A stretch of 46,687 bases of DNA from a virus. Below the pieces are notes generated by a model, which was not told the DNA's origin, did not search any database, and saw only the letters and a list, made by a program, of their open reading frames with translations. Of the stretch, positions 3,527-45,373 are shown one piece after another. How positions within the stretch are numbered: position 1 is the first letter of the stretch; each line of letters begins with the position of its first letter. The stretch is from positions 1 through 46,687 of IMG/VR virus record IMGVR_UViG_3300010397_001068; one strand, 5' to 3'. The position numbers and the translations under genes were made by a program.

Positions 3527-3541
3527 GAAATATGGTCTGCC
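3527..3541. other. attL core
   Basis: Fifteen bases, gaaatatggtctgcc, identical to 45326-45340. To the left lies host spacer after tRNA-Arg(CCG); to the right lies phage DNA. In the uninterrupted host this core would be followed by the body of tRNA-Arg(TCT). Confidence 0.9.
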
Positions 3542-3628
3542 AAACCCCCTGAAGTTCGAACCGGCCGGCAGGATATCATCGGCTTCATCCAAGCAGCCGA
3601 CGAGTTGCGTTTGGCGATGGCGGCATGA
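3542..3628 (+). other. stranded 3' end of the serine integrase gene
   Basis: In the frame the integrase would have after ends are rejoined, this segment encodes 28 residues beginning KPPEVRTG and ending DELRLAMAA. It stops at TGA 3626-3628, which overlaps the ATG of the next gene at 3625 as ATGA. The lysogen has no start codon or ribosome-binding site for it, so it is silent here. The circle-form integrase would be 526 residues, against 508 in the lysogen. The identical phase and the phage-typical ATGA junction make coincidence unlikely. Confidence 0.8.
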
Positions 3629-4269
3629 GCATGGCCAAGTCCATGGTCGCCTACGCAGCTCGTACCGGGACCCGAGCCAATCTGGACGCATTGAAGACAG
3701 CGGGCTGGCGCCTCATGGTTTCAGCGCGCGGAGTCCTTCGTTCTGAGGGCTTCCGCTACGCCCTCGACAACGGAGCGTGGACCGCATACCAGCGGGGTGA
3801 GGCCTTCGACGAGCGAGCCTTCCTGGTCGCGGTCGACAAGCTCGGAGCCGACGCCGACTGGATCGTAATCCCAGACATCGTTGCAGGCGGGCTTGACTCG
3901 CTGCGCTTTTCTCTCTCTTGGCTCTCCCGGCTGCAAGATGTCGGGGTGCCACTCCTCCTTGCCGTGCAGAACGGGATCGAGCCGCGGGAAGTTGGCGGCC
4001 TTGTTAGTCCCGGGTTAGGGATCTTCGTCGGCGGTGACACGGCGTGGAAGGAAGGGACTATGTCGGTGTGGGGTGACCTGGCGGTTGAACGAGGCTGCCA
4101 CCTTCATATCGGCCGAGTAAACACGGTTCGCCGCATTCGGCTCTGTAGCGACGCAGGCGCGGATTCATTTGACGGCAGCTCTGCATCGCGGTTCGCTGTG
4201 TCCATCGGAACACTCACCCGTGCCCGTGAGACAGCCGCACTTCAGCGATGCCTTTGGGGTGCGGCTTGA
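3625..4269 (+). CDS. TGT-fold / DpdA-like base-exchange protein
   Basis: 214 residues. Seen: DNGAW at 48-52, PDIV at 83-86, FVGGDT at 134-139, LHIGRV at 160-165 and DSFDGSSASRF at 180-190. This order resembles the tRNA-guanine transglycosylase superfamily and small phage DpdA-type proteins, which insert 7-deazaguanines into DNA. No preQ0 biosynthesis genes are in the window, so precursor would have to come from the host. The start has no ribosome-binding site but overlaps the circle-form integrase stop (ATGA), so I infer translation by coupling after excision. Family-level assignment is moderate; substrate unknown. The next gene is an ASCH-domain gene, often linked to modified-nucleotide recognition. 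Confidence 0.55.
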   Translation: MSMAKSMVAYAARTGTRANLDALKTAGWRLMVSARGVLRSEGFRYALDNGAWTAYQRGEAFDERAFLVAVDKLGADADWIVIPDIVAGGLDSLRFSLSWLSRLQDVGVPLLLAVQNGIEPREVGGLVSPGLGIFVGGDTAWKEGTMSVWGDLAVERGCHLHIGRVNTVRRIRLCSDAGADSFDGSSASRFAVSIGTLTRARETAALQRCLWGAA

Positions 4270-4771
4270 GTCGCCTCTTCTCGGGCTTTGGTCTGACCCT
4301 CTGGCGCCCCTGGGACTGGGCGATCCTGCACGCCGGCAAGGACGTCGAGAACCGCGACTGGCTACCTTGGCCCAGAGTTCTTGGCCGGCACATCGCTGTC
4401 CATTCGGGCCTGCGCTGGGACGCCGCCGGCGCCCGCGATCTCCGGCAGGGCGGCTACCCGGTGCCCGAGCCCGAAGAGTGGCCGGGAGGGTTGATCCGCG
4501 GAGTTGTGCGAGTCGCCGGCACGGCTGAACAGCACTGGAGCGAGTGGTTCGGAGGGCCAATCGGTGGCTGCTCGAAGATCCGGTTTTGCTCCCACAGCCG
4601 GTGCCCTGCCGCGGAAAGAAGAAGCTCTGGCGCCTGCCGCCGCCAGTGCTCCTATCTGTTGCCGAGGGCCTCCGCAGAGGTTTCGTTCCGCCCGCTCCAG
4701 AAACTCAACAGAGAGAGGGGCAATCCGAAGGCGGGCGGGGGGGGTGCCCCCCGCAGGATATCCGGACATAA
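4248..4771 (+). pseudogene. ASCH-domain protein, frameshifted
   Basis: The first frame, from ATG 4248 or TTG 4266 (TTGA overlap with the preceding stop), has the ASCH pattern: LWRPWDWAILHAGKDVENRDW, then IAVHSG. Near 4555-4570 the homology moves to another frame, which continues RWLLEDPVLLPQPVPCRGK and ends at TAA 4769-4771. Joined, the product would be about 170 residues, a normal ASCH size. ASCH domains are beta-barrel RNA- or modified-base-binding modules. Adjacency to a DpdA-like gene suggests a shared role with modified nucleotides. A one-base deletion, a sequencing error or, less likely, programmed frameshifting would all explain the break. Confidence 0.6.
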
Positions 4772-4778
4772 ATGTCTG

Positions 4779-5396
4779 TTATCCCGCGTTGCGGATCACC
4801 ATGGCTCGGTCTTCGGGCGCGACGGAGTCTAGGTAGAGGCTGGTGGTCGAGAGGGAACTGTGCCCGAGCTGGCCTTGGATGTCGGACGATGGAACGCCGC
4901 GGCGGGTGAGGCGCACGGCATGGCTGTGGCGCAACCCGTGGGGATGGACGCGCTTTTCGATCCCCGCCTTCTCCGCGTAGCGGCGCAGCATGGTCCAAAC
5001 GTAGGGCTGGGAGAGGGTGGTGCCCAGGCGCATTCGCCCCTTGGTTGCCAGTGCATTGGCTCCCTCGCTGATCGTGCAGAACAGCGGAGCTTTGGTGGAG
5101 ATCCCGAGCTCCTCGCGTGTCCGGATCCACAGCTCGAGCGGTGCAATGCCCGGCTCCGAGATGACAGCGAGGCGTTGCTTGGCTCCCTTGCCACGCCGTA
5201 CGTTGATCTCGCCGCGGGCCAGGTCAACGTCCCTGGGGATGAGGGCGATCATCTCGCCCACCCGCAGGCCGGCGTAGAACAGGGTCGCAATGATGGCCCG
5301 GTTTCGGATGCCCGAAGGCCCCCGCCGCGACGCCTGCGCCATGATCTGTTCGACCTCCTGTTCGGACTGCACCTCGATCGGCTTCAACCGCGCCAT
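4779..5396 (-). CDS. tyrosine recombinase, catalytic domain only
   Basis: 205 residues from the ATG at 5396, chosen because AGGAG sits seven bases upstream. All catalytic landmarks are visible: R45 (AGLRVGE), K70, H153/R156 (HPHGLRH), H179 (LGH) and Y188 (SLYLDS). The N-terminal arm and SAM-like core-binding domain of full-length integrases are absent. It is transcribed against the structural genes, from a good promoter at 5424-5451. Because the serine integrase explains the att structure, this enzyme probably does another job, such as dimer resolution, inversion or control of a second site. Confidence 0.85.
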   Translation of the reverse strand: MARLKPIEVQSEQEVEQIMAQASRRGPSGIRNRAIIATLFYAGLRVGEMIALIPRDVDLARGEINVRRGKGAKQRLAVISEPGIAPLELWIRTREELGISTKAPLFCTISEGANALATKGRMRLGTTLSQPYVWTMLRRYAEKAGIEKRVHPHGLRHSHAVRLTRRGVPSSDIQGQLGHSSLSTTSLYLDSVAPEDRAMVIRNAG

Positions 5397-5417
5397 AGTT
5401 AGGCTCCTGTGTAGAAT

Positions 5418-5466
5418 CATAACTATATAGCAGGCTGGTGCGCTAGGTCAACAGGAACATAACTAT
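5418..5466 (-). promoter_or_regulatory. promoter of the short tyrosine recombinase with flanking direct repeats
   Basis: Reverse strand: -35 TTGACC (5446-5451), a 16-bp spacer, -10 TATATA (5424-5429), then a short leader to the start at 5396. A nine-base repeat, cataactat, occurs at 5418-5426 (over the -10) and 5458-5466 (upstream of the -35), 40 bp apart in the same orientation. This spacing suggests a regulator or recombinase binding on one face of the helix. The local sequence is much AT-richer than its surroundings. Confidence 0.6.
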
Positions 5467-5575
5467 TTGTTTGCGCCGAGGGTGGTTGCGTTGTTGCCTT
5501 TCTGCGCGGGTTTGATTCGTCCCCGCGAAGGCTCACCCTGAACGAAAAGCTTCGATGCGCGGGTACTTCTTCACC

Positions 5576-5607
5576 GGCGCAGAACGAAACCGGTTTCGTT
5601 CTGCGCC
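5576..5607. repeat. 32-bp perfect palindrome
   Basis: The sequence is fully self-complementary around the point between 5591 and 5592. Each half reads ggcgcagaacgaaacc outwards-in, with no loop. It lies in the gap between two tyrosine recombinase genes. There is no T-run on either side, so it is not an ordinary intrinsic terminator. A dimer-binding operator or a recombination site is more likely. The rest of 5467-5754 shows no gene I can support. Confidence 0.8.
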
Positions 5608-5754
5608 CGACGGGCGGCCGGGAGGGGGGCGCGGCGACGGATGCACGGCGGCTTCGCCCCAACCACACCGACCAGGTAAGTCACAACAAAGCCGCGCCTT
5701 GCGCGCGCCGCGTGCCGCGTCGGATGACGTCTAGAGGGGAAGAAGAACAGCGGG

Positions 5755-6780
5755 TTACAGAACAGGGTTTTTGTTGACTCCCGGCCCCGCCAGCTCCTGG
5801 AGCTCGCCGAGGAGGGCCTGGAAGCCCTGTTGGAGCCTCGGAACCCTCCGCTTCCCGTCGAGTGGACTCCTCCGCGCCAGAGCCCGGCCCAGCCTCTCGG
5901 CGTCGGCGTGCAGGTAGAGCTCCGTCGTGGAGATCGAGGCATGCCGCATGAAGAGCTGGACGGTCCGGATGTCGTGTCCGGCCGCCAGGAGATGGGTCGC
6001 AATCGAGTGTCGCAGGATGTGGGGAGAGAACCTCCTCCCACCGGCCGCGATCCCCGCCTCGTCGAGTCGCCGGCGGAGGATCTTGCGCACCATGGCTCGC
6101 GAGAGCGGCCTACCCCACAGGTACCGCCCGGCCGGCCGGATCGCCAGATAGGCTCCCAGAAGACGCGAGACGGCGCGATCGAGCGGCTGCCTCACATCAC
6201 CTCCCGCCGCCTTGCCGCGCCGGATGAGCACCGAGAAGGTCGACGTCGCTTCGTGCCACTGGACGCCCTCTGCCTCCAGCGGGCCGATCTCCGACGCTCG
6301 CAGCCCGGCGACGTAGGCCACCCCCAGGAGGCAGCGGTTGCGCAGCGACCGGGCATCCTTTGGGAGAGTGCCCGGTCGATCGCCCCAGAGGAGGCGCGAC
6401 ACTTCGGCCACGGTGAGCACCTTGATCTCCCGCCGATACCGCCGCGGCCCCGACAGGCCGGCCGCGGGATTGGCTGCAACAAGCCCGTGAGCCAGGCTCC
6501 ACTCGCCCAGCGAGCGGATGGCCACCACCACACCCTGCCGCACCGATTCGCCCTTGCCTGCCAGGTAGAGGCGCCTGAGATGCGCCTCGATATCCTCCCG
6601 GTTGATCTCGCTGAACGGCCTCCCAACATCACGCAGCAGCCGGTCGACCAGACCCCGGTACCGCGCGGCTGTCGCCGTCGCCCGGCCCTTCACCGCGATC
6701 AAGTACGACTCCCACCGATCGAGCTCCGGGGCGTCCCTCTGTTGGAGTTTTGCGCACATTGGAGGAACCCTACGGCACAC
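5755..6780 (-). CDS. tyrosine recombinase, XerC/XerD-like
   Basis: 341 residues from GTG 6780 (an ATG at 6759 is equally plausible). The N-terminal half (about 18-110) is a SAM-like core-binding domain. The C-terminal half shows R161 (AGLRASE), K190 (RRGK), H254/R257 (PHILRH), H280 (MRH) and Y289 (ELYLH), the full catalytic set. About 45 extra residues follow the Tyr. It is read in the same direction as the shorter recombinase at 4779-5396. Its role beside a serine integrase is unclear; I infer resolution or another specialised recombination rather than integration. Confidence 0.87.
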   Translation of the reverse strand: MCRRVPPMCAKLQQRDAPELDRWESYLIAVKGRATATAARYRGLVDRLLRDVGRPFSEINREDIEAHLRRLYLAGKGESVRQGVVVAIRSLGEWSLAHGLVAANPAAGLSGPRRYRREIKVLTVAEVSRLLWGDRPGTLPKDARSLRNRCLLGVAYVAGLRASEIGPLEAEGVQWHEATSTFSVLIRRGKAAGGDVRQPLDRAVSRLLGAYLAIRPAGRYLWGRPLSRAMVRKILRRRLDEAGIAAGGRRFSPHILRHSIATHLLAAGHDIRTVQLFMRHASISTTELYLHADAERLGRALARRSPLDGKRRVPRLQQGFQALLGELQELAGPGVNKNPVL

Positions 6781-6795
6781 CCCCGGCCGCTCCGG

Positions 6796-6823
6796 AATTG
6801 GACGCGTCTTCAGTCCAATTTTT
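6796..6823 (+). terminator. hairpin with T-run in front of the terminase genes
   Basis: An eight-base stem (aattggac/gtccaatt) with a nine-base loop is followed by TTTTT, read on the plus strand. It lies between the divergent recombinase and terminase genes. It may stop transcription entering from the left, or the inverted repeat (TTGGAC..GTCCAA) may be an operator. The remaining bases up to 6931 show no strong promoter. Confidence 0.4.
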
Positions 6824-6931
6824 CACCTTCTTCCGCGAAGATCCCGCGCAGAATCAGTGACTTAGAGAAGAGTACGACACCCGGTCCCTTGAGGAAGTCC
6901 GCCCTCCTGCTCGAACCTCTCCGGCAGGACC

Positions 6932-7594
6932 ATGATCATCAAACGCGACGGCAACACCCCGGGAAGTCGGCGAAGCCGAGGAGGAAGGCCTCGCGGCCCT
7001 TGCTCCGCCAAGGAGCTGGCGCAGCGCCGCGCCGCCCCGGTCAAAACCGGAGAGCATGCGCAAACCGCGCTCGGCCAGGCGCTCCCCCCCTGCAAGCCGA
7101 GGACATGCCCCAACGACGGCACGGGAACCTGTGACGTCAAGAAGGCCGTCGAGGCCCGCGGTGGCGCCCTCTCGGCCTGCCTGGTGGCCCTTGGCGGCGG
7201 CCGTGAGCTGGACGCCTATCTCAACGCCTTGCGAACCGGCGACGTCAAGGGCCTCGAGGAGCTCACCGCGACGAGCCTCGCCGCTCAAGCCGTTCTCGGT
7301 CAGTCCGAGCTGGCCATACTCCTCGGCGAAGGCTTCGTCACCGAGCAGCCCCTCGTCGGCAGGACCGAAGACGGTGGTACCGAGATCATCGGCTACCGGC
7401 CGGTCGAAAACCCACGGGCCGCCAACACCCTGAGGCTGCTCCAGCAGATCGGCCATACCGCGGCTGACCAGGTCCTCACCCCAAAAAGCCGCGGCGAAAA
7501 GAGACGCGACGAGGGCCTCGGCCGCGCCGGCCAGGCCGCCTGGGTTGCCCAAATGCGCCATCAACTCGCGGCGAGCGAAGAGGAGACCGATTGA
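6932..7594 (+). CDS. probable terminase small subunit
   Basis: 220 residues directly upstream of the large terminase, whose TTG start overlaps this stop. The N-terminus (about 1-35) is very basic, fitting DNA binding. A Cys-containing patch (PPCKPRTCPNDGTGTC) follows, then a helical body and a basic C-terminus. I do not recognise a specific small-terminase family, so the call rests mainly on position and charge pattern. It opens the late, plus-strand morphogenesis operon. Confidence 0.5.
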   Translation: MIIKRDGNTPGSRRSRGGRPRGPCSAKELAQRRAAPVKTGEHAQTALGQALPPCKPRTCPNDGTGTCDVKKAVEARGGALSACLVALGGGRELDAYLNALRTGDVKGLEELTATSLAAQAVLGQSELAILLGEGFVTEQPLVGRTEDGGTEIIGYRPVENPRAANTLRLLQQIGHTAADQVLTPKSRGEKRRDEGLGRAGQAAWVAQMRHQLAASEEETD

Positions 7595-9528
7595 ACACCG
7601 TCGAGCTCCTGCACCCCGACCTCCCCGCGCTGGTGGACGCCTATCTGCGCCGGCGCAGGGCGTCCTGGCAGGATCTCGAGCGCGGCCGTCTCAAGCTCGG
7701 CGACACCGTGCTGACCGTCGACGCCCTCCAGTGGTGGTTCGTCAACGCGGACCCCGTCTTGTGGGCCGAGTGCAACCTGGTCAACCAGCCCGAAGATGGC
7801 GGAGGTCTCTGGAGGCTCTTCGACTACCAGAAGGCCTCGCTCCGCTTTGACGGCAACGCCGTCCACCAGGACGGTGCTGAGGTGGGCAAGACCCGCGAGC
7901 TGTTGGCACTGATCGCCTGGGGTTCTCTCGGCATCGAGCGCGGCTCCATCCTCGTCGGCTCCGCCCGCGACGGCGACCTCGACGAAATCTGGGAGGAGCT
8001 CGACTATCAATGCGGCGCCAACCCGTACCTTGGGCGGCGCCGCGTCCGGGTAACCACCAAGCCCTATCGCAAGATCAACTGGGACAACGGCCTGCGCACC
8101 CTCTTCCGGCCCGCCGGCCACGACGGCACCGCCTTCCGCGGCATCCATGTCCGCGGCTGGCTGCTCCTCGACGAGGCCGCAAAAGTCGCCGAGGATGCCT
8201 GGAAAGATTTTTGGCGCGCCGCCAAGCCTGGCTGCAAGATCCGCATCTACTCAGTCCCCACCGGGTTGCAACTCATCTCGTTTCAACGCATCGCGGACGG
8301 TGCCGTTCCCGCGGAACAGGTCGTGCCAGAGGCAACGCCCGAGCTGCTCATCGAGCAGCTTCTGCACCCGGCCGTTCCCGCCGCGGTCCGAGAGTTGAGC
8401 CGCAAGATGGAAGGCCGCATGTTCGTAAGGTTCTGGTGGCCGAAGACCATCATGCCGCACCCCTTCTGGAGCGAAGAGCGGCGCCGCCACTACGTAGAGC
8501 AGTTCGGCAGCCCAGACGCGCCGGGCTATATCCAGAACGTCCTCGGCCTACCCGGCGATCCCGCGAACACGGTGTTCCCGGATCGCCTGCTGACTCCCGC
8601 GCTCACCTTCCTGCCCGACTATCGGACGGTCACCCTGCGCTGGGACACCCGCGCCGGCCGCATCGACGCGCTCAGCCGCCGCCTCAACCCCCTCTATCCC
8701 TGGGAAGACTCCGCGACCGGGGACGAGCCGCTGCTTGAGGGCGACGAAGAGTCCGAAGGCTCGGACGTCCCCACGCCCTTCCTCAACGTCCTCCAGGACA
8801 GCATCGACGTCTCCGGCTGGGAGACCATGGATCCGGGGCAGCGCCGCCAATTGGTGGACCGCCTTGTCCTCGACTTCGTCCGGCCGATCGCCGGCGATCT
8901 CATCGTTGGCGTCGACGTCGGCTCGGCGACAGTCACCGAGATCGCCGTCCAGCGGCGATCCACCATCGATGCGCTCATCCTGCGCATCAGCCTCATCGGC
9001 TGGAACTGGTACGCCCAGCGCGACTTTCTACTCGCCCTTGACGCCATCCTATCTCCCGCCGGCGGTTGGGGCGTCGACGCCACCGGCGTCGGCAGTGTCC
9101 TCGTCGACCTCGTGCAGCCCGATTTCGGCGAGCGCATGAGCGGCTACGTCTTCAACCGCTCCACGCCGGCGATCGATCCCGACAGTGGCGAAGTCCGCGA
9201 GGACCCCAACTCCGGCGAGCCCCTGCTGATCTCCTATAAGGAGCTGAGCACTCAGTCCATCGAGCGTCGCCTGCACGGCCGCCGCCTCGAATTTCCGTAC
9301 GACCCTGAGGTTCGGCACCTGCTGTCGAACCACACCTACACCCAGTCCGGCGCCGCCGGAGGGCGCACTTTTAAAAAGGTCGACGATCACCTCGTCGACG
9401 CCCTCCGCGTCGCCGAGTTGCGCAAGCTCACCGACACCTGGGGCGCCGTCGCCGCGACGCCGCCTACACAGTTCGCCGCCCCGCCTTCGAATCGGGCCGA
9501 TTCGATGGAAATCATGGAGAAGATGTGA
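7591..9528 (+). CDS. terminase large subunit (Mu gp28-like)
   Basis: 645 residues from TTG 7591, overlapping the previous stop as TTGA. The Walker A-like GAEVGKTR is at 95-102 and Walker B WLLLDEA at 190-196. The RNase H-like nuclease part begins with IVGVDVGS, continues with GWGVDATGVGS and ends with HLVDALR, giving the three acidic positions. This motor packages DNA into procapsids. The Mu-type portal, MuF and gpT genes nearby support a Mu-like assignment. An acidic insert (GDEESEGSD) sits between motor and nuclease. Confidence 0.9.
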   Translation: MNTVELLHPDLPALVDAYLRRRRASWQDLERGRLKLGDTVLTVDALQWWFVNADPVLWAECNLVNQPEDGGGLWRLFDYQKASLRFDGNAVHQDGAEVGKTRELLALIAWGSLGIERGSILVGSARDGDLDEIWEELDYQCGANPYLGRRRVRVTTKPYRKINWDNGLRTLFRPAGHDGTAFRGIHVRGWLLLDEAAKVAEDAWKDFWRAAKPGCKIRIYSVPTGLQLISFQRIADGAVPAEQVVPEATPELLIEQLLHPAVPAAVRELSRKMEGRMFVRFWWPKTIMPHPFWSEERRRHYVEQFGSPDAPGYIQNVLGLPGDPANTVFPDRLLTPALTFLPDYRTVTLRWDTRAGRIDALSRRLNPLYPWEDSATGDEPLLEGDEESEGSDVPTPFLNVLQDSIDVSGWETMDPGQRRQLVDRLVLDFVRPIAGDLIVGVDVGSATVTEIAVQRRSTIDALILRISLIGWNWYAQRDFLLALDAILSPAGGWGVDATGVGSVLVDLVQPDFGERMSGYVFNRSTPAIDPDSGEVREDPNSGEPLLISYKELSTQSIERRLHGRRLEFPYDPEVRHLLSNHTYTQSGAAGGRTFKKVDDHLVDALRVAELRKLTDTWGAVAATPPTQFAAPPSNRADSMEIMEKM

Positions 9529-10566
9529 ATGCGAAAGCTCGTGCTGCCCTCCCTTCTGCTTCTGCTCCCGTCGATAGCCGCCGCGCAATACCCCAGGCCA
9601 TCTCATGCGTTGCTCGGCTGGTTCGACATCGCCAACCACCTTGCCACCGCTGTCTTCGCTGGAGAGGTCATCGTGGCGCCAAAGGGCGGCAACTTCAAAA
9701 CGATCGGCGAGGCCGTCGCCTATGTCACTGCTCAGAATCCAACGCCCCAGGCGCCCTGGTTCATTACCGTCGAGCGAGGCGCGGTGAGCACCGGCACCGT
9801 CAATCAGACGTGCCACTACACCGAGACCGGGTGGGTCACTCCGCCGTCGACTTTGATCCAGGGCAGAGCGGTGATCCATCCCACTCCTGTCGGATTTACC
9901 TCAGCGCCAGTCGTTTGTCTCACGGGGGCAGGTGGAACACTGGTCAAGCTTCAGTCCGGATCACAGATGTCGCACCTGACACTGATTGACCGCACGCCGG
10001 CAACTGCCGCCGTCAAGCTGCTTGAGATGGATTGGTCTGGTCAAAGCTCTGGGCAGCCAGCCGTGATTTCGGACGTTGCCCTGATCACGACCTCCGCCGT
10101 GGGTAACGCGTTTGCCGTGGACGGGTTGACAATTACTCATGGGGCGCTCTACGGCTACGGCTTCAGCATTTTGCTCTCCGGCAACGCGCTCGGAACTGGC
10201 GTTGTAGTCAATGAGACGACCGCCGCTTTCGGCGTCACGCTGTACGGAGGACGGTGCCAGGGTTCAACCGGCTGCACTTCGTTTTTTCATAACGTCTCCA
10301 CTGCCTCCTTGAAGCTTTATGGTGTGAGGGTGGACCCGAAATGCGCCGCAGATCTAAAAAACGACTCCACCGGACTCCTTGAGGTCCACCAGACCGACTA
10401 CACTACGTCCTCCGGCACGATCACCGACGGAGTGACTCACGCCAACGGCGGCACTGCGCTTCCTGCCACCTGCTCCAACGATCAACTCTTCATCAACACG
10501 ACCACGCATTCTTTGTGCTGGTGCGAAGGTAGCGGTAACACCTGGAAGTGCGCCGCCGGATCGTAA
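9529..10566 (+). CDS. secreted beta-rich protein (cargo gene)
   Basis: 345 residues starting with a clear signal peptide (MRKLVLPSLLLLLPSIAAAQ). It continues as a Ser/Thr/Gly-rich, beta-type sequence with an early FKTIGEAVAYV segment typical of parallel beta-helix (pectate-lyase-like) proteins. Four late cysteines occur near the C-terminus. Its base composition looks lower in GC than its neighbours. It sits between terminase and portal, where head genes are normally contiguous, so it looks like an inserted cargo gene (moron). An exported protein may modify the lysogen surface; a virion role is less likely given the signal peptide. Function unknown. Confidence 0.6.
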   Translation: MRKLVLPSLLLLLPSIAAAQYPRPSHALLGWFDIANHLATAVFAGEVIVAPKGGNFKTIGEAVAYVTAQNPTPQAPWFITVERGAVSTGTVNQTCHYTETGWVTPPSTLIQGRAVIHPTPVGFTSAPVVCLTGAGGTLVKLQSGSQMSHLTLIDRTPATAAVKLLEMDWSGQSSGQPAVISDVALITTSAVGNAFAVDGLTITHGALYGYGFSILLSGNALGTGVVVNETTAAFGVTLYGGRCQGSTGCTSFFHNVSTASLKLYGVRVDPKCAADLKNDSTGLLEVHQTDYTTSSGTITDGVTHANGGTALPATCSNDQLFINTTTHSLCWCEGSGNTWKCAAGS

Positions 10567-10569
10567 AAT

Positions 10570-14066: not shown

Positions 14067-14084
14067 AGGAAAGGAACCCCCAAA

Positions 14085-14528
14085 ATGGCACTCGCGCGCA
14101 ACATCCAGCGCCAGCTCACTGTCCACGATCCACAGCTCGTGCCCCTGGCCGTGGCTGCCGCCACCACCATTTACGAAGGCGCTCTCACCGCGACGAACGC
14201 GAGTGGGCTCGCGATACCAGGGGCCGACTCCGCGGGAATCACGTTCATGGGAATCGCGTGGCGCGGCTATGACAATTCCGGCGGCTCGGCCGGGACCATG
14301 GGCGGCACCGCCTTCAACGCCTTCGACGCGGTGCGCTACTGCGAAGTGGACGTCGAGGGCGAGTGGGAGATCAAATTCACCGGCACCACACCGAAACCCG
14401 GACAGCTCGCCTTTGTCGTCGACGACGATACCGTGTCCGCCGCGGCCACCACCAACAACATTCCTTGCGGTCGATTCACCAAACCCGGAACCCCGGGCTA
14501 CTGGTTCGTCGACATCGAGCGGAGGTAG
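14085..14528 (+). CDS. probable head decoration protein
   Basis: 147 residues, lying between the scaffold and major capsid genes, the usual place for decoration proteins. The sequence is beta-rich and Gly/Ala-rich (YEGALTATNASGLA, TFMGIAWRGYDNSGG). Its form resembles DUF2190-type capsid-associated proteins, but I see no decisive motif. A GAGGAAAGGA ribosome-binding site precedes the start. Confidence 0.55.
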   Translation: MALARNIQRQLTVHDPQLVPLAVAAATTIYEGALTATNASGLAIPGADSAGITFMGIAWRGYDNSGGSAGTMGGTAFNAFDAVRYCEVDVEGEWEIKFTGTTPKPGQLAFVVDDDTVSAAATTNNIPCGRFTKPGTPGYWFVDIERR

Positions 14529-14531
14529 CAA

Positions 14532-15461: not shown

Positions 15462-15471
15462 GGAGATTCCC

Positions 15472-15879: not shown

Positions 15880-15882
15880 CCC

Positions 15883-16302: not shown

Positions 16303-16307
16303 CCGCC

Positions 16308-30423: not shown

Positions 30424-30431
30424 TCCAAATG

Positions 30432-30466
30432 AAAGGGGGAGCGGGTTTGAGTCCCGCTCCCCCTTT
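30432..30466 (+). terminator. strong hairpin terminator
   Basis: A perfect 14-bp stem (aaagggggagcggg / cccgctccccctt t) with a seven-base loop lies between the peptide and TPR genes. The plus-strand arm ends in TTT, so it can terminate the lipoprotein-peptide transcript. Read in reverse it also ends in TTT, making it potentially bidirectional. Confidence 0.75.
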
Positions 30467-30484
30467 GTGCTACAACATTGTGCC

Positions 30485-32533: not shown

Positions 32534-32602
32534 GGGGGGCGGCTACCTGGCGGGCCGCCCTAAACCGCATGCACGGTCCCAAGCCCGTGCGAGGAGGCCG
32601 CG

Positions 32603-37300: not shown

Positions 37301-37971
37301 TCCACTACCAAGCCGCCAAGCCGACCGGCTGGGAGCTCGCCGACGAGGTCACGCTCCCCGGAGGCCGGCACCTTACCGGCACTGCCGCGAGGGTCTACAA
37401 CCTGCTGGCCGAGACGGCCAGGCGAGGCCACCGCTGGAAAGTCGGCCGGCACCCGGCGCCTGCCGGCGGATGGGTCCCCACGTGGGTGCTTCGCGAGCCC
37501 TGGGCTGGCGGATCCGCAGGAGACCGGCGGCTGAGAGACCTCCGCGAGGAGGGTGTGCCCATCGAGATGCTCACTTTCACGGGAGGCGACCTCTCCTCGC
37601 GGTCGAACCTGTGGCGCATCACTCCAAACTCGGGCGAAAAGCCTCCCGGAAGCCTTTCCGCGCAGGAATCGAGCGGCCTTCCCTTGGCCGGTCTGACCGT
37701 GCGCTTCCTGTCCGTGCCCGTCAAGGAGCGGCCTCCGGAAGCCCTCGACGTCTCGCCAGGCGCGGAGTGCGCCCTCGCGCCGTCGATCGGAATCGCAGAC
37801 GACGAGGCGTATCGTCGCGAGCTGCTCGCGACGTATCGCGACGGCCGTCTCCTGCCGGCGCTCGCCGGTCTCGTCGTGGTGGTCCTGTGGACCGACCCCG
37901 CCGCCGCCTTCGATCCCCGCCGCATGCTCGGCGTCGCACTGCGCAAGCTCGGAGCCCAGCTTGGGGGCTGA
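37297..37971 (+). CDS. hypothetical protein ahead of the replication genes
   Basis: 224 residues from GTG 37297 (GTGA overlap). The first half has a winged-helix-like part (TGTAARVYNLLAETARRGHRW, RRLRDLREEG), the second a helical tail. I do not recognise a family. Position before the initiator gene suggests an early, possibly replication-related role. Confidence 0.5.
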   Translation: MIHYQAAKPTGWELADEVTLPGGRHLTGTAARVYNLLAETARRGHRWKVGRHPAPAGGWVPTWVLREPWAGGSAGDRRLRDLREEGVPIEMLTFTGGDLSSRSNLWRITPNSGEKPPGSLSAQESSGLPLAGLTVRFLSVPVKERPPEALDVSPGAECALAPSIGIADDEAYRRELLATYRDGRLLPALAGLVVVVLWTDPAAAFDPRRMLGVALRKLGAQLGG

Positions 37972-37975
37972 TCAC

Positions 37976-38812
37976 GTGCAACGGATCTGGCAAACCTCCC
38001 GCGAGGGAGGCTCACGTCTCGTGCTGCTGCTCGCCGTGGCGAGCCACTGCGACGACGCCGGCGAGTGGCGGGCCAGCCTCGCCACCCTCCAACGCCTCTC
38101 GCGGCTCCAACGCCGCCGGGTGCAGCAAGTCGTCGACGAGCTGATCGCGGACGGCGAGCTCCAGGCCGAGACCGGGAACGGCCGCGGCAACGACTCGCTC
38201 TACCGCCTGGCGGCCGGAAAGGGTGCACCGGAGTGCACCCTTTCGCCCGCAGAGCCTGAAAAAGGGTGCAATCCAGTGCACCCTTTAGAGGCCAAGCCCA
38301 CAGAAAGGGTGCACTCCAGTGCACCCTTTAGCCGAAAGGGTGCAGCCGAGTGCACCCTTTCCGAGCCACAAAGGGTGCAGCCAGTTGCACCCTTTTTCCC
38401 TTCTTCCCCCCCCTGCACCCCCCCTAATAACCCAACAGCACCTTGCTCATCATCTGCCGTTGACCCCGGTAAGGAGTTGCGACCGCCTGCCCGGCCCCTC
38501 TCGGGGTCGCAGCAGGCCGTCGCGACGATCAGCCGGCTGTTCGAAACCGCCTCCATCCCTGTGCCCGGCCCGGGCCAGATCGCTGGCTGGATCAAAACCC
38601 TCGGCGGAGTCACCGTCCTGGAGGCGCTCGTCACCCAGCTCATCGCCGCCGGACTCGCGAAAAAATCGCGGCCGGATGCTTACGTCCACCAGGTCGTCAT
38701 GGACCGGTCTACTGCCGGCGCGGCACGACACGGGCGGCCGAGCCACCACACGGCGGGCGCCGACGACACTCGCCGCAAGCAGGCTCAAAGGCTCCTCGAG
38801 GAGGGCGAATGA
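37976..38812 (+). CDS. replication initiator-like HTH protein
   Basis: 278 residues from GTG 37976. The N-terminal winged helix (LATLQRLSRLQRRRVQQVV) is typical of phage initiator proteins. The middle (about 80-140) is low-complexity and encoded by the hairpin repeats at 38218-38395. The C-terminal domain (QAVATISRLFETASIPVPG) resembles loader-interaction parts. A helicase loader and DnaB follow, so initiator function is strongly suggested. As in lambda O, the origin would lie inside the initiator gene. Confidence 0.75.
   Translation: MQRIWQTSREGGSRLVLLLAVASHCDDAGEWRASLATLQRLSRLQRRRVQQVVDELIADGELQAETGNGRGNDSLYRLAAGKGAPECTLSPAEPEKGCNPVHPLEAKPTERVHSSAPFSRKGAAECTLSEPQRVQPVAPFFPSSPPCTPPNNPTAPCSSSAVDPGKELRPPARPLSGSQQAVATISRLFETASIPVPGPGQIAGWIKTLGGVTVLEALVTQLIAAGLAKKSRPDAYVHQVVMDRSTAGAARHGRPSHHTAGADDTRRKQAQRLLEEGE
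38218..38395 (+). repeat. five perfect hairpin repeats, probable replication origin
   Basis: Five copies of AAAGGGTGCA-N6-TGCACCCTTT at 38218-38243, 38261-38286, 38304-38329, 38335-38360 and 38370-38395. All ten-base arms match perfectly; the six-base centres differ. Copy spacing is 43, 43, 31 and 35 bp. They are followed by a pyrimidine/AT-richer run near 38390-38450. Multiple identical palindromes within an initiator gene are typical of iteron-type origins. Confidence 0.75.
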
Positions 38813-39462
38813 TCGACTGGCTCTGTCGCGCCTGCCAGCAGCCCCAGGTCGCCTGGTCCGACGTTCCTCCGGACCGCACCTGCCATGCGTGCCGCGATCG
38901 CCAGGCGGCGGCGGCGACGGCGGAGCAGACGGCCGGGATTCCCCCGGGGTATCGAGGGCTCACCCGGCAAAGCTGGGAAAAGCGTTTCGGCCGGAGCTGG
39001 CCGGCGCGAGCCGCCGCCTGGTCGGGCTCGCCGCACTGGTTCGCCACCTACGGGCCGACCGGCACCGGCAAGACCGGGCTCGCCACCGTGCTCCTCGCCG
39101 AGCACCTGCGCACCGGCCGGCGCGGGCGCTGGATCTCCGGCGCCGAGCTCTCCCGGCGGATCCAGCTCAACTTCTCCGCGGCCGACGAGGTCCTCTCGCC
39201 ACTCCTCGTCACCGGCCTGCTCGTCCTGGACGAGCCGTTCACCGGCGCCGCGACCGACTGGTACATCGAGCGGCTCGGGCTCATCTGCCGCACGCGGGAC
39301 GAGCGGCGTCTCCCAACCGTCGTCACGGCGCAGGAGCTCCCCGAGCTCTTCGCGAAGACGCCTCCGGGCGCTCCGCCCGCCCTGCTGTCGCGGATGTTGA
39401 GCGGCATCCGCCTCCCGCTCAAGGGCGACGACGTCCGCCTGCTCCGACAGGAGCCCGCCTGA
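38809..39462 (+). CDS. DnaC-like helicase loader ATPase
   Basis: 217 residues. An N-terminal zinc-ribbon (CRACQQP...CHACRDR) is followed by the P-loop GPTGTGKTG near 84-92 and Walker B LLVLDEPF near 140. The short AAA+ core is of DnaC/DnaI size. It loads the hexameric helicase encoded next. ATGA overlap with the initiator; the stop shares a base with the dnaB-like start. Confidence 0.82.
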   Translation: MIDWLCRACQQPQVAWSDVPPDRTCHACRDRQAAAATAEQTAGIPPGYRGLTRQSWEKRFGRSWPARAAAWSGSPHWFATYGPTGTGKTGLATVLLAEHLRTGRRGRWISGAELSRRIQLNFSAADEVLSPLLVTGLLVLDEPFTGAATDWYIERLGLICRTRDERRLPTVVTAQELPELFAKTPPGAPPALLSRMLSGIRLPLKGDDVRLLRQEPA

Positions 39463-40841
39463 TGGCGCCGCGCACGCTGCCGCACAGCGAAGAGTCAGAG
39501 CGCGCCGTCCTCGGTGGTCTGCTCCTCGATCCGGCCGAGCTCGCCGCGACCCGAGCGCGTCTGGAGCCGAGCGATTTCTACGTGGAGCGCCACCAGGTTC
39601 TCTACACGGCCATGCTGGCCGTCGCGGACGCCGGCTCGACGATCGACATGCTTACGCTGCAAGCGCATCTCGAGCAGGCTGGAGGCCTCGAAGCGGTGGG
39701 CGGACTCGCCTATCTCGCTAGCCTCGATGTCGATCTCCCGGACATCGGGCGGCTCGACCAGTACGTCGAGATCGTGCGCGACCGGTCCACCCGGCGCGCG
39801 CTCATCGCCGTGTCCCGCCAGACGATCACCGCGGCGGCCGGAACCGCGGAACCGGTCGGCGAGCTCCTGGCCAGCCTCCGCGGCAAGGCCGAAATCCTCC
39901 ACTCCGGCGCCGTCCGCGCCCGCTGGTCCGGCGTCGGCACAGCGATCGACGGGCTCATGGAGGCGATCGAAGCCGGGAGGGCCGAGCAGCTCCAGGGCCT
40001 TCCCACCGGATTTCCCGCTTTCGACACCGGGATCGGCGGCCTGCTGCCGGGGACGCTGATCGTGCTCGCCGGTCGGCCTGGCATGGGCAAGACGTCGTTC
40101 GCGGTCGACCTGGTCCGGCACACGGCTCTCGGCAGCGCCTTGACCTGCGGCGGCGCACCTCCTCGTCCTCCCTTGCCCGTAGGGGTTTTTTCCCTCGAAA
40201 TGGATCAGGAGGAGCTAGCTCTCAAGCTTCTCTCCGGTCAGTCGCAGATTCCCACGAAATACTTGCGATCGGGCCACGCCTCGACGCGGCAGTGGACCGA
40301 GATTTGGAAGGCCGCCAGGCATTTGGGCGCATCTCCCTTACTGATCGACGATCAGCCGGACCTGACTCTCCGAGAGCTCGAAGGCCGCGCCCGTCGCCTC
40401 CTGGCAGAGTACCCGACCCTGGCGCTCCTCGTCGTCGACTACTTGCAGCTTCTGCCTGCGGGAGAGCGCACGGCAAACCGGCGGCAGGAGGTTGGCTTGG
40501 TCACCCGCCGACTCAAGACTCTCGCGCGGTCGCTGCGGGTGCCGATCGTTGCTCTCAGCCAGCTCAACCGCGAAAACGTCCGCAGGAGCGACCCGAGACC
40601 GCACCTCGGCGACCTGGCGGAGAGCGGCGAGATCGAGGGCCACGCCGACGCGGTGATCTTCGTCCACCGCCCCGAGTACTACTCGCCGGACGACGACGAG
40701 GTCCGCGGCCTGGCGGAGCTCGTCGTCGCGAAGAACCGGCACGGCGAGACGGGCACCGTCGAGCTCGCCTGGCTGGCGCCGATCACCTCGTTCCGGACTC
40801 TGAGGCGGCAGGAACCTGCCGCGGGAGCGGACCCCTTTTGA
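39462..40841 (+). CDS. dnaB: replicative DNA helicase (DnaB-like)
   Basis: 459 residues, normal DnaB length. N-terminal domain (SEESERAVLGGLLLDP, FYVERHQVLYTAML), then RecA-like core with Walker A AGRPGMGKTS, VFSLEMDQEE (H1a), LLVVDYLQLL (Walker B) and LSQLNRENVRRSDPRPHLGDLAESGEIE (sensor region). It unwinds phage DNA at the fork. The ATG shares the last base of the loader stop. Confidence 0.95.
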   Translation: MAPRTLPHSEESERAVLGGLLLDPAELAATRARLEPSDFYVERHQVLYTAMLAVADAGSTIDMLTLQAHLEQAGGLEAVGGLAYLASLDVDLPDIGRLDQYVEIVRDRSTRRALIAVSRQTITAAAGTAEPVGELLASLRGKAEILHSGAVRARWSGVGTAIDGLMEAIEAGRAEQLQGLPTGFPAFDTGIGGLLPGTLIVLAGRPGMGKTSFAVDLVRHTALGSALTCGGAPPRPPLPVGVFSLEMDQEELALKLLSGQSQIPTKYLRSGHASTRQWTEIWKAARHLGASPLLIDDQPDLTLRELEGRARRLLAEYPTLALLVVDYLQLLPAGERTANRRQEVGLVTRRLKTLARSLRVPIVALSQLNRENVRRSDPRPHLGDLAESGEIEGHADAVIFVHRPEYYSPDDDEVRGLAELVVAKNRHGETGTVELAWLAPITSFRTLRRQEPAAGADPF

Positions 40842-41206
40842 ACCACTTCGACCCCGCCGCCGCGGCGAAATGCCTGCCACACGTCAACCCCGGTTGTGTC
40901 CGGGGCGGCCTGGCTGTGGGCCTGCGCGATGGCGCAGTCCTCGCCCTGGTCGTCGCCGAGCTGAGCTCGCGGGAAATCGCCGGGCTGAGAGCACACCAGG
41001 TGCGGCAGGTCGGGCGGCGGGTGTTCGTCAAGCTCGATCACCGCTTGCTTCCGCTTCCGGATCCCCTGGGCTCAAGGTTGCTGGCTTGGCTGGTGGAGCA
41101 GAACATCTGGGGCTCCGAGGAGCCCGTCTTCGCCGGCCAGAGAGGCGCCTTGACCCCCGAAGGGGTGATCAAGATCGTGCGCCGGTACCTCCGGGGGGTC
41201 CAATGA
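40838..41206 (+). CDS. truncated tyrosine-recombinase-like protein
   Basis: 122 residues from TTG 40838 (TTGA overlap). The fold pattern of an integrase catalytic domain's first half is visible (LRDGAVLALVVAELSSREIAGL, later LPDPLGSRLLAWLVE, GALTPEGVIKIVRRYL). The expected Arg of box I appears replaced by Ser (SSREIAG). The H-x-x-R box and tyrosine are missing. It therefore cannot be a working recombinase. It may be a regulatory remnant or a DNA-binding domain. Confidence 0.45.
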   Translation: MNHFDPAAAAKCLPHVNPGCVRGGLAVGLRDGAVLALVVAELSSREIAGLRAHQVRQVGRRVFVKLDHRLLPLPDPLGSRLLAWLVEQNIWGSEEPVFAGQRGALTPEGVIKIVRRYLRGVQ

Positions 41207-41361
41207 CCTACCGGGTCGAGCGCCGCAAGGGTCGGCTCTGGCTGAAACCGGCCTCCTCCGGTCTCCCGCTGCACCAGGCGCTCCTCCTCGCCTGCGACCT
41301 CGCCGGCTGGGGCCGCCCCGTGCAGCCGCCAGCCGCACCCGAACCCGAGGCCGGCGTATGA
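41203..41361 (+). CDS. small hypothetical protein (52 aa)
   Basis: Starts ATG 41203, overlapping the previous stop; stop overlaps the next ATG (ATGA). Sequence begins MTYRVERRKGRLWLKPASSG and ends Pro-rich. No family recognised. Coupling on both sides supports it as a real gene. Confidence 0.5.
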   Translation: MTYRVERRKGRLWLKPASSGLPLHQALLLACDLAGWGRPVQPPAAPEPEAGV

Positions 41362-42206
41362 AAGCGGCCCTCTACGCCCGCACCTCCGCGGCCGACCTCG
41401 GCCGCGTCACGGTCGAGCAGGTCCTCGGCGACCTCCGCGCATATGTCGCGCGCCGCGGCTGGGACGTGTCGCTCTCGGCCGCCGATCGCAACCCCTGGCT
41501 CCACGGCCGGCGCGAAGGACTGGAGGCTGTCACCGCGGCGATCCGCGACAGGTCGATCGACGTCCTCGTCGTGACGACGCTCACCCAACTCGCCCGCGAC
41601 GTCCGGCACCTGGCCGAGGTGGGCAAGGCCCTCCTCGGCGACGGCGAGCAGCAGGAGATCTGCCTCGTCGCGGTCGAAGAGGTCCTCGACACCACGACGC
41701 CTGCGGGAGCCATCCGCTGGCGCGACTGGGTGGAGATCTCCTCCAAGATCGCCCACCACACGCGCCGCGAAGCCTCGATCGTCGCGCACCTGCGAGCGGC
41801 CGAGGATGCCTGGGGTCGCCCCTGCGTCGCCGTGAACCCGCTCGAGCTCCTCAGCCTGTGGGAAGGTCGCGCTGGCCACCGGCCCCTCTCCGCGCGAGAG
41901 ATCGCCGGCAAGCTCGGCGTCTCGGCCACCACCGTCCGCGCCCGCCTCGCCGAGCTCCGCGACGCCGGCCGCGTCAACGACGTAGCCCGCGAGCAGGCCC
42001 TGGCCGCCAAGGGAGCGCGCAAGGGCGGCCGGCCCCCGCGACCGCTAAACGATGACGACGTTCGCGCGGCCTGGGAGCAGGCCAGCAGCCGCTTCGGCAT
42101 TCCACGCCAGCCGAGTGCCGCAACTCTCGCCCGGAAGCTCCGGGTGAGCCCCAGCCGTCTCACCGAAAAGCTTCGAGCCCTCGGGCTCTTGGAGGGAAAG
42201 CCATGA
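41358..42206 (+). CDS. small serine recombinase / resolvase-like protein
   Basis: 282 residues. Resolvase N-terminus AALYARTSAAD with the catalytic-type Ser10, then VLVVTTLTQLARDVRHL, the usual DRLARN-like segment altered. The C-terminal half has two helix-turn-helix units (SAREIAGKLGVSATTVRARL and SAATLARKLRVSPSRL). Unusual: no recombinase zinc domain and a degenerate middle. Could be an active invertase/resolvase or a regulator derived from one. Confidence 0.65.
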   Translation: MKAALYARTSAADLGRVTVEQVLGDLRAYVARRGWDVSLSAADRNPWLHGRREGLEAVTAAIRDRSIDVLVVTTLTQLARDVRHLAEVGKALLGDGEQQEICLVAVEEVLDTTTPAGAIRWRDWVEISSKIAHHTRREASIVAHLRAAEDAWGRPCVAVNPLELLSLWEGRAGHRPLSAREIAGKLGVSATTVRARLAELRDAGRVNDVAREQALAAKGARKGGRPPRPLNDDDVRAAWEQASSRFGIPRQPSAATLARKLRVSPSRLTEKLRALGLLEGKP

Positions 42207-42526
42207 CTGGTTTACCTGTCAACGTTGCGGTCACGCCCCTGTCCTGGTTTCATCCGCTGACCACGCCGGATGCGACTACGGATCTGCTGCTGATCGTCTT
42301 CACCACTCCCGGGACGGGTTGGCCGTGGCGCCGTGAAGGCGAGGTCCTTGTCGAGAAAGCAGTCTACGACCCTGGCCAGTTCGGCTGGATTATCCAGGGG
42401 GGCCGGTACGATGGGGAGTACATCCAGCGCGATTGGGTGCGCGCCTGGGCCAACGCTGGCCAGGTTCTGGGGCAGTTGAGCAACCTTCCCGCCTTTTCGT
42501 TGGATCTTCCAGGGGAGATCGCGTGA
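42203..42526 (+). CDS. hypothetical protein
   Basis: 107 residues, ATGA-coupled. A compact beta-type sequence (TPLSWFHPLTTPDATTDLL, WIIQGGRYDGEYIQRDW) with many aromatic residues. Resembles DUF551-like small phage proteins only loosely. Function unknown. Confidence 0.55.
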   Translation: MTGLPVNVAVTPLSWFHPLTTPDATTDLLLIVFTTPGTGWPWRREGEVLVEKAVYDPGQFGWIIQGGRYDGEYIQRDWVRAWANAGQVLGQLSNLPAFSLDLPGEIA

Positions 42527-43179
42527 GGCGGCGCCTGGGCCTCTGGATCGCCATGGCGGCCGTCGTGGTCGCCACGCCGCGGCTGGTGCTGACCCTCCTG
42601 GCCGGCGAGAGGATCGGCCTGCCCCCGGGCGCCACGGCCGCGCTGATCGCCATCTCCGGCGCCGGCGCTGCCGTCGTCCTGAGCGCCGGCCAGCTCTACA
42701 TCGTCCACGTCGTGGGGACCGTCCCGCAGCGAGTGACCCTCGCGTTCCTCTGGGCCGGCATCCTCCTCATGACCGCCGTCCTGGTCGTGCCGATGATCAT
42801 CGCCGGCCTCGAAGCGCGTACTCTGCCCGAGGTCCTCACCCAACCCGTGACGCCCGGCTGGGCGGGGCGCTGGACCTGGGCGGCCGTCGCCGTCCTCGCC
42901 GTCGAGCTTGCCGCGGCCGTCTGCGTGTACGCCGCCCGCCTGCACGGCCGGGAAGCTGAGCAGAGAGCTGAGCTGGAGCAGCAGCTCAGCATGCTGCAAG
43001 CACAGCTTGCTGCTTCTCAGCAAGCAAGGCAGCAGAGGCGTGCAAGCAAGCAGCAGCCGGCAGCAGCCGGCGAGCTGGTGCCCTGCCGCAACGCAGGCGC
43101 CGGCTGCGACTACGTCGGCTCCGAGATGGGGGAACGGGGACACCAGACGCACTGCCCGGCGAAGGGTGGTGCTCGTTGA
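42523..43179 (+). CDS. multi-pass membrane protein with zinc-finger tail
   Basis: 218 residues from GTG 42523. Four hydrophobic segments (about 6-24, 36-56, 68-92 and 118-140) are followed by a Gln-rich coiled coil (AELEQQLSMLQAQLAAS). The end has CRNAGAGCDYVGSEMGERGH..HC, a TRAF-like C2HC pattern. Membrane anchoring of a cytosolic zinc finger is inferred. The coiled-coil DNA is low-complexity (cagc-rich). Function unknown. Confidence 0.55.
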   Translation: MRRRLGLWIAMAAVVVATPRLVLTLLAGERIGLPPGATAALIAISGAGAAVVLSAGQLYIVHVVGTVPQRVTLAFLWAGILLMTAVLVVPMIIAGLEARTLPEVLTQPVTPGWAGRWTWAAVAVLAVELAAAVCVYAARLHGREAEQRAELEQQLSMLQAQLAASQQARQQRRASKQQPAAAGELVPCRNAGAGCDYVGSEMGERGHQTHCPAKGGAR

Positions 43180-43673
43180 AGCCAATCACGCAAACCCTCA
43201 CGGGCGAGGAGGGGAACTGCTTCGCGGCCTGTATCGCGAGTCTCTTGGAGGTCAAGCTCGGCGAGATCGACCTGATCATGGGAGGCGATTGGTACAACCG
43301 CTTCAATGCGTGGCTCGCGCCTCGCGGACTGGCCTACTTCGAGATCTACTTCACCGAGCCGTTGCCACCTTCGGTCTTTGGAGCCATTGCCGCCGATCAA
43401 CTATGGGTTGCGGTCGGGCCGACCCCCAGGGGCTTGCTCCACGCGGTCGTCATGCGGGGCGAAACCCTCGCCCACGATCCGCACCCCTCGGCGGTCGGGT
43501 TGTCCGCTATCCACGGCGCTGGGTTCTTGGTTCCCCTCGACCCCTCGACCTCCGCGAGCTGGAGCTCAGGTTGGGAGGGTGGGTGGCAGATGGCAGTGCG
43601 GACCTGCGCACGGGAGGTGAGCCGACTCGGATTGACAAACCTCGCGGATCACCTCCTGCGGAGCCTGCGGTAA
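43176..43673 (+). CDS. C39-like papain-fold protein
   Basis: 165 residues from TTG 43176. A cysteine in GNCFAACIASLLE, a histidine in GLLHAVVM and an Asp in DPHPS are in the order of papain-like C39 peptidases. The pattern is frequent in phage early regions. Substrate unknown; no signal peptide, so it acts in the cytoplasm and is unlikely to be the endolysin. Confidence 0.6.
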   Translation: MKPITQTLTGEEGNCFAACIASLLEVKLGEIDLIMGGDWYNRFNAWLAPRGLAYFEIYFTEPLPPSVFGAIAADQLWVAVGPTPRGLLHAVVMRGETLAHDPHPSAVGLSAIHGAGFLVPLDPSTSASWSSGWEGGWQMAVRTCAREVSRLGLTNLADHLLRSLR

Positions 43674-43691
43674 CACGCGCGAGCGCCTGCT

Positions 43692-43850
43692 ATGCTTTCT
43701 CTCGAAAAATGCCGCGAGATCTTGGGCCCCGTCGCCAAGGGGAAGAGCGACGCCCAGATCGATCAACTGCGAGGTGAGCTCTACATGCTCGCCGGCATCG
43801 CGATCGCGGCCTTCAAGGAGTCGAGGAAACCTGGCGAGACCGGAAAATGA
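43692..43850 (+). CDS. small protein preceding the integrase (52 aa)
   Basis: ATG 43692 to TGA 43848-43850, overlapping the integrase ATG as ATGA. Helical sequence with EKCREILGPVAKGKSD and DQLRGELYMLAGIAIAAF. Small helical proteins of this look often precede serine recombinase genes. It could be a recombination directionality factor, but only position supports that. Confidence 0.6.
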   Translation: MLSLEKCREILGPVAKGKSDAQIDQLRGELYMLAGIAIAAFKESRKPGETGK

Positions 43851-45373
43851 CACAGCGCGCAGTCATCTACACCAGGGTCTCCAGCGAACGCCAGGTGGCG
43901 AACCACTCGCTGCCCGTCCAACACCGCGGCTGTCTCGACTATTGCGAGCGAGAGGGCATGGAGGTCGCCAGGGTCTTTGTGGAGGGAGGAGAGTCTGCTA
44001 AGACGGCAGACCGAACCGAGCTCCAGGCTATGCTCGCCTACTGTCGAAAGCACCTCGGCCAAGTGCAGTTCCTGGTTGTCTACACGGTCGACCGGCTGGC
44101 GCGGAATCAATTCGACCACGCGATGATCCGCCGGCACCTCGCGACGCTTGGAATCACCCTCCGCGCCGCGAGCCAGCCGATCGACGACTCACCAACCGGC
44201 AGGGCGATGGAGGGCATGCTCTCCGTTTTTGCGCAACTCGACAACGACATCCGCGCAGAGAAGGTCAAGGAGGGGATGCAGGAGGCGGCGAAAGGCGGCC
44301 AGTGGATCTGGCGGGCGCCGTTGGGATACGTCCACGCTGTGCGGCCGGAGGGCGGGCGGACGATGATACCGGACCCGGTCCGTGGCCCTCTGGTGGTCAA
44401 GGCCTTCGAGCTGGTCGCCGCAGGCCACACGGCCGCTTCTGCCCTGGCCGAGGTTACGGCCCTCGGCCTACGCACCGCGCGTGGTGAGCCCCTCATCCCA
44501 GAAAGCTTCAAGCACGTCCTGGACAACCACGTCTACGCGGGGCGTGTGCGTGTGCCCTCCTGGCAACTGGACGTCCCCGGCAACTTTTCTGCGCTGGTCG
44601 ACCCTGACCTCTGGTGGCGGGCGCAGTCGAAGCTCAACGGCGGAGCCGCCGTCATACCGCACCGCCGAGGCAGGCCGGACTTCCCCCTGAGGGGGACGGT
44701 CATCTGCGGCGCCTGCGGTCGGCCCTTGACGGCGAGTTGGTCGACTGGAAGAAGGGGAGGGAAGTACGGCTACTACCACTGCCCGGCGCCCGCGCGCTGC
44801 AAGGCCACGAAGGTCCGCAAGGAAGAGATCGAGGAGGACTTCCTGCAACTCCTCCGCGAGCTCCGGCCAGAGCGTGAGTACCTCGCCCTCTTCCGGGCGG
44901 TCACCCTGGACGCCTGGCATGACGATCAAAAAGACATCGTAGATCGGCGGGCCGCACTGGAAGCGGAGGTCCGCGAAACCAAGAGGCGACGAGACCGCCT
45001 GGTGGAGGCGTACCTCTACGAGCAAGCCATTTCGGAGGAGGTCTACCAGGACCAGATGGCCCGCATCGACGAGGCCTACACCCTGGCCAACATGCGCCTG
45101 CACGACGCGCAGGTGTCCGAGATCGACATAGAGGCCGTGCTTGCCTTCGCCGAGCACCTCGCCCTGAAGGCCGACCGAATCTGGCTGGCCGCCACCCTGG
45201 AACAGCGCCAGCGCCTCCAGCGCGGCCTCTATCCAGACGGGCTCAAGATCACGGAAAACCGGCTAGTTCGAACCCCCCCAACCCTATTGATCTTCAATGG
45301 GTTGGGAGCGTTCCCCGAGGGAATCGAAATATGGTCTGCCTGGAGGGATTCGAACCCCCGACCCGCGGCTTAG
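43847..45373 (+). CDS. large serine integrase, C-terminus exchanged at attR
   Basis: 508 residues in the lysogen. Resolvase domain (about 4-145) with YTRVSS and catalytic S12, VDRLARNQ at 81-88; recombinase domain (about 150-265); zinc ribbon with C277, C280, C302 and C308; coiled coil (about 355-420). The last ten residues (WRDSNPRPAA) are antisense tRNA-Arg(TCT) sequence, past attR. In the excised circle, residue 498 would instead continue into 28 phage codons (3542-3625). It is the only recombinase touching an att site and is therefore the likely integrase. Confidence 0.92.
   Translation: MTQRAVIYTRVSSERQVANHSLPVQHRGCLDYCEREGMEVARVFVEGGESAKTADRTELQAMLAYCRKHLGQVQFLVVYTVDRLARNQFDHAMIRRHLATLGITLRAASQPIDDSPTGRAMEGMLSVFAQLDNDIRAEKVKEGMQEAAKGGQWIWRAPLGYVHAVRPEGGRTMIPDPVRGPLVVKAFELVAAGHTAASALAEVTALGLRTARGEPLIPESFKHVLDNHVYAGRVRVPSWQLDVPGNFSALVDPDLWWRAQSKLNGGAAVIPHRRGRPDFPLRGTVICGACGRPLTASWSTGRRGGKYGYYHCPAPARCKATKVRKEEIEEDFLQLLRELRPEREYLALFRAVTLDAWHDDQKDIVDRRAALEAEVRETKRRRDRLVEAYLYEQAISEEVYQDQMARIDEAYTLANMRLHDAQVSEIDIEAVLAFAEHLALKADRIWLAATLEQRQRLQRGLYPDGLKITENRLVRTPPTLLIFNGLGAFPEGIEIWSAWRDSNPRPAA
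45326..45340. other. attR core
   Basis: gaaatatggtctgcc, identical to attL. Its last nine bases are the 3' CCA end and part of the acceptor stem of tRNA-Arg(TCT) on the reverse strand, so the tRNA stays intact after integration. It also encodes integrase residues near 494-498. Confidence 0.9.

Follow-up and report, generated by a model that had tools for sequence, protein, structure and literature searches.

The integrase gene and its attachment sites

The window, a stretch of 46,687 nucleotides from an IMG/VR virus record, carries Mu-like portal and head genes together with a 15-bp repeat, GAAATATGGTCTGCC, which is present in two exact copies (Table 1); no copy was found on the opposite strand of the window. 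The last 9 bp of the repeat are the 3′ end of a tRNA-Arg(TCT) called by ARAGORN. We conclude from the sequence that the two copies mark attL and attR at the 3′ end of this tRNA gene. The empty attB of the host was not seen, since the flanking 340-aa protein has no convincing relative in the genome contigs or in the Myxococcota, the Acidobacteriota and the phylum of L048 as sampled.

Table 1. Attachment sites, integrase gene and neighbouring features, with positions in the window
Feature	Position	Strand	Evidence
attL core, 15-bp repeat copy	3527–3541	.	exact repeat
attR core, 15-bp repeat copy	45326–45340	.	exact repeat, ARAGORN
Host tRNA-Arg(TCT), target (attB), left intact	45332–45408	-	ARAGORN
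Large serine integrase gene, lysogen form, 508 aa	43847–45373	+	Pfam, translation, relative's fold
Detached integrase 3′ end: 28 codons KPPEVRTGRQDIIGFIQAADELRLAMAA and stop	3542–3628	+	in phase at joined junction; tail-motif likeness
First gene after tail, phrog_15826, unknown function	3625–4269	+	PHROGs; ATGA overlap
52-aa ORF directly upstream of integrase, ATGA-overlapped	43692–43850	+	phmmer
Probable second attL scar: 34-bp repeat, then in-phase tail WYALDAGARTLEPSRLVEFVRLMDALRRLDWAA and stop	1694–1815	+	repeat, tail likeness
Host tRNA-Arg(CCG), apparent target of element behind second scar	3388–3464	-	ARAGORN; repeat

The integrase has, in order, the Pfam domains Resolvase (E 1.9e-32), Recombinase (3.7e-08) and Zn_ribbon_recom (2.5e-10); R10, S12, Q25, R83 and R86 are invariant in the family alignment, and the catalytic Ser and Arg are in place. 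The preliminary description of this DNA held that the integrase frame crosses attR and ends in ten residues of antisense tRNA, and the ORF, its final residues WRDSNPRPAA and the ARAGORN call all bear this out. When the repeats are joined in silico, the same phase continues for 28 codons to a total of 526 aa, as had been claimed, with the minor correction that the sense codons occupy 3542–3625 and the stop 3626–3628. In this joined form the stop overlaps the ATG of the next gene as ATGA; eleven further 4-bp start/stop overlaps among the phage genes, six of them ATGA and the integrase start included, agree with the view that this is the phage's style of junction. As read from the two junctions, the circle (526 aa) and lysogen (508 aa) enzymes have different C-termini, and 498 of the 526 residues, including every annotated domain, are kept in one piece upon integration. 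An open frame of 28 codons is by itself weak evidence because the DNA is GC-rich; the strong evidence comes from relatives.

The gene order in the circle is 52-aa ORF, integrase, tail and the 3625 gene, with ATGA overlaps as the couplings, and integration breaks the last step, the 3625 gene being coupled to the integrase in the circle only. Searching the regions upstream of the relatives' integrases with phmmer located counterparts of the 52-aa ORF at the same place in many of them, and we infer that it is a candidate integrase partner or directionality factor. The 3625 gene was also tried as a route to relatives and led to unrelated phages.

Related integrases and their lost tails

Viral and genome scans supplied relatives of 23–55% identity, and for three of these the genomes of their phyla were searched for more. 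Querying with the integrase alone recovered no viral relative; alignments with conserved motifs did so, and one of these alignments (A2) included two sequences as bait only. The resulting 101 distinct integrases come from Acidobacteriota, Nitrospira, Myxococcota and candidate phyla. In 64 of them the ORF enters an antisense tRNA called by ARAGORN (Glu, Ala, Lys, Arg, Met, Leu, Gln, Asn or Val), and an automatic rule picked out another 15 with a tRNA-like peptide at the end, wrongly in the case of L163 at least. The rest comprise two with an uninterrupted tail, nine that fall short of the C-terminus, one at a contig edge and ten with other endings. Antisense-tRNA overlap was absent from all 18 distant Bacillota integrases that the same scan found. 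A serine integrase that ends in antisense tRNA-Glu is present on an annotated faecal phage contig.

Relatives with an uninterrupted tail, which the preliminary description proposed to look for, do exist: L077 and L093 have the tail within the integrase ORF, and viral contig L022 has it too, with an integrase that is frameshifted. The integrases of L077 and L079 are 80% identical, and where L077 has the tail, L079 ends in antisense tRNA-Glu. A homologue whose integrase stops before attP had been named as the observation that would speak against the scheme; none was clearly found, with the ten relatives of other endings standing unclassified. From these sequences, we conclude that an integrase crossing its attP is the rule of a family and not a one-off. 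The placing of attP inside the integrase gene is thus upheld by both the window and the broad family, and the epithet “unusual” survives in part: the arrangement is the normal state of this integrase family, while for serine integrases we found no report of it in the literature searched, in which subscription journals were poorly covered. Many integrated elements keep their integrase ORFs open, and the elements in the relatives' genomes often span no more than 3 to 15 kb between tail and integrase.

Tails were sought in the DNA upstream of the relatives' integrases, which was read across the recurring tRNA-end core in the phase of the integrase. This yielded tails that share a motif, such as SIPSWNQIAGWLKQIDNLRQAA (L030), SQNDWNQLYQWLREVELLRDACNV (L031), NSASWNRLTSWLRDLEGLRRFA (L046) and PSANWNQMTIWLRQLDGLRR (L061), summarised as SWNQIxxWLxxhDxLRxA, a helix. 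An HMM built from nine tails matched further tails in loci outside its training set; in these loci all strong matches but one lie on the integrase strand, and over all elements the count is 32 on that strand versus 1 on the other. All 22 of the tails that lie outside the integrase ORF and have a shared core of at least 8 bp are in phase with the integrase, where chance agreement would be 1/3 per tail. Pairwise comparison of 31 distinct tails gives a mean identity of 0.67 for second, 0.54 for first and 0.44 for third codon positions, the last being the most variable. Of the codon differences, a share of 0.21 is synonymous when read in the integrase frame, versus 0.13 and 0.11 in the other frames. 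Both patterns indicate that the tail is conserved as protein and not merely as an attP arm, and we conclude on this evidence that what is lost at integration is a conserved amphipathic helix selected as protein.

AlphaFold2 modelled the tail-bearing L077 protein with a mean pLDDT of 83.6, and the predicted fold matches serine integrase structures including those of SPbeta, Bxb1 and phiC31. Residues 508–559, which hold the tail, have pLDDT below 50, yet a helix is predicted at 527–545. The model is consistent with a tail helix set apart from the folded body by a flexible linker; AlphaFold2 predicted no docking site for it in L077.

The window's own tail lacks the WN pair and keeps the pattern (window DIIGFIQAADELR, family QIAGWLKQIDNLR). 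Three scoring schemes were applied to it, of which one gave a strong result: 2 of 5000 shuffles reached its mean ungapped BLOSUM62 score against the family tails, and by HMM the match is marginal (195 of 5000). We regard it as a diverged version of the family tail, judging by this likeness. A similar sequence lies nearby in the host flank. The stretch 1694–1727 repeats the 3′ region of tRNA-Arg(CCG) (3368–3401) with 31/34 positions identical. Directly after it, WYALDAGARTLEPSRLVEFVRLMDALRRLDWAA and a stop are read in the W phase used at attR; this tail, too, is like that of the family, with 7 of 5000 shuffles as good in the ungapped test. We read positions 1694–1815 as the probable mark left by a further element of this type; in the frames examined, tRNA-Arg(CCG) has no integrase left next to it.

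Four of the relatives' loci (L052, L058, L181 and L182) have two or three successive tails upstream of one integrase, as if they were scars of elements that had inserted one upon another at a single tRNA gene. Among Myxococcota, more distant serine integrases of about 30% identity (L196, L197, L198, L199 and L202) also end in antisense tRNA (Arg, Asn, Glu, Val or Gln), several in the phase used by the window; the far ends of their elements could not be reliably identified. The closest phage by portal protein (L146, 66%) has a sequence that ends before the att region.

A proposed switch upon integration

By the sequence, the gene reads through attP in the circular phage and gives the 526-aa enzyme. 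Recombination at the tRNA 3′ end leaves the last 28 codons at attL and gives the gene ten antisense-tRNA codons in their place. We suggest that the full-length enzyme acts on the free circle (attP × attB), that the tail-less form recombines less readily or needs a partner, and that the gene in this way records its own integration state, favouring or stabilising lysogeny; integration would at the same time uncouple the integrase operon from the downstream genes of the circle (3625 onward). The tRNA determines the peptide that is gained, whose length and sequence vary, and the loss of the tail is therefore likelier to matter than the new end. That the swap regulates activity or direction, a possibility that the preliminary description had raised together with an effect on stability, is, we infer, likely. 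The explanation as a whole, in which the gene holds attP in its own 3′ end, the full form serves the circle, the tail-less form is handicapped and lysogeny is favoured, is the one that on balance we would hold. Against it speak the missing WN motif and marginal HMM score of the window's tail, the low-confidence tail helix for which no docking site is predicted, the integrase ORFs that many integrated elements keep open, and the precedent of Mx8, where the lysogen form is changed in specificity instead of being inactivated. Its extension to a widespread tRNA-targeting family that remembers integration, through a conserved helix present only in the circle and removed by the recombination it aided, as a means of directional control, is attractive but put forward tentatively, at somewhat less than even confidence.

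Other readings of the locus were weighed. The 28 codons of the window could be an accidental open frame, which such GC-rich DNA would supply often enough and which the marginal HMM score would allow; with an ATGA overlap typical of the phage, a family that follows the same rule, the ungapped likeness and, in the second scar, a comparable tail in matching phase, we consider this very improbable. Equally improbable is that the sequence past the core is an attP arm to which the integrase binds and which is open as a protein frame by accident. At some 25 bp, one half of a serine integrase's attP must partly fall here, but the conservation spans about 60 bp, follows codon position and is in phase in 22 of 22 cases, and the codon periodicity largely refutes this reading.

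The arrangement might instead serve compactness only, with attP and integrase forming one module, the tail aiding folding, stability or expression, and both forms recombining equally well. This is the most serious competitor, although we think it unlikely. In its favour, the tail is predicted as a separate helix beyond the folded body, integrated copies keep open integrase genes, and a single exchangeable module of int and attP has been proposed for archaeal suicidal integrases (PMC8371274), but conservation of the tail protein across phyla fits a dispensable part poorly. A further proposal takes its model from phage Mx8, where attP lies within int and integration is reported to yield a recombinant int with a new 3′ end that is altered in specificity and not inactivated (Tojo 1996 and Magrini 1999, as cited in PMC6070905). 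By analogy, the lysogen form would be active with a changed site preference, and tail exchange would tune specificity and not act as an off-switch. We judge this to be a good deal less probable still, as the Mx8 Int belongs to a different recombinase family and the acquired peptide varies with the tRNA without sign of selection.

Relation to known systems

In the integration-dependent immunity of mycobacteriophages, attP lies inside a coding gene and integration changes the C-terminus of its product; there the changed gene is a repressor, here it is the integrase. The integrase of the window shares with Mx8 the position of attP inside int and the in-frame change of C-terminus on integration, but Mx8 is a tyrosine recombinase whereas the window enzyme has serine recombinase domains, and no conserved tail family is described for Mx8 in the literature read. 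In archaeal suicidal integrases of SSV type, attP is also within the integrase gene, which integration changes (PMC8371274; Islander, PMC4383910); these are tyrosine recombinases, and integration breaks their gene into two halves that are both inactive, while in the window enzyme the exchange is confined to the tail. Islander notes integrases that extend across attP for both Mx8 and SSV and stated (online in 2014) that serine-family integrases were not known to target tRNA genes (PMC4383910). The domains are those of phiC31, Bxb1, A118 and SPbeta, with matching structures, although the reported sites of these classical large serine integrases are not tRNA genes (PMC4383910). The principle is thus known for tyrosine integrases (Mx8, SSV), and what appears to be new is the serine integrase version.

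How reversal of integration is prevented is a central question for serine integrases, and their use in genome engineering is built on it. The family offers natural pairs of enzyme forms that differ solely at the tail, in dozens of elements, as well as a large collection of serine integrases whose tRNA targets are defined; in 2014 such a class was said not to be known. Gene calls made on integrated copies give an incorrect C-terminus, and the attP-form protein needs rebuilding from both ends of the element.

Some further features of the window are recorded here. The region 1694–3401, flanked by the 34-bp repeats, carries an AAA_14/DUF4143 gene (1842–3161, minus strand) in addition to the integrase-tail scar and is probably a degenerate integrative element at tRNA-Arg(CCG). 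The host flank has a tandem array of 21-bp repeats at 1117–1445. A second serine recombinase-like protein is encoded at 41358–42206, with a Resolvase N-terminal domain and a helix-turn-helix, and without the large C-terminal integrase domains. At 38217–38399, five near-palindromic repeats of about 31 bp (GAAAGGGTGCAC..GTGCACCCTTTC) overlap the start of a DnaB-like helicase gene and may be an operator or origin iterons.
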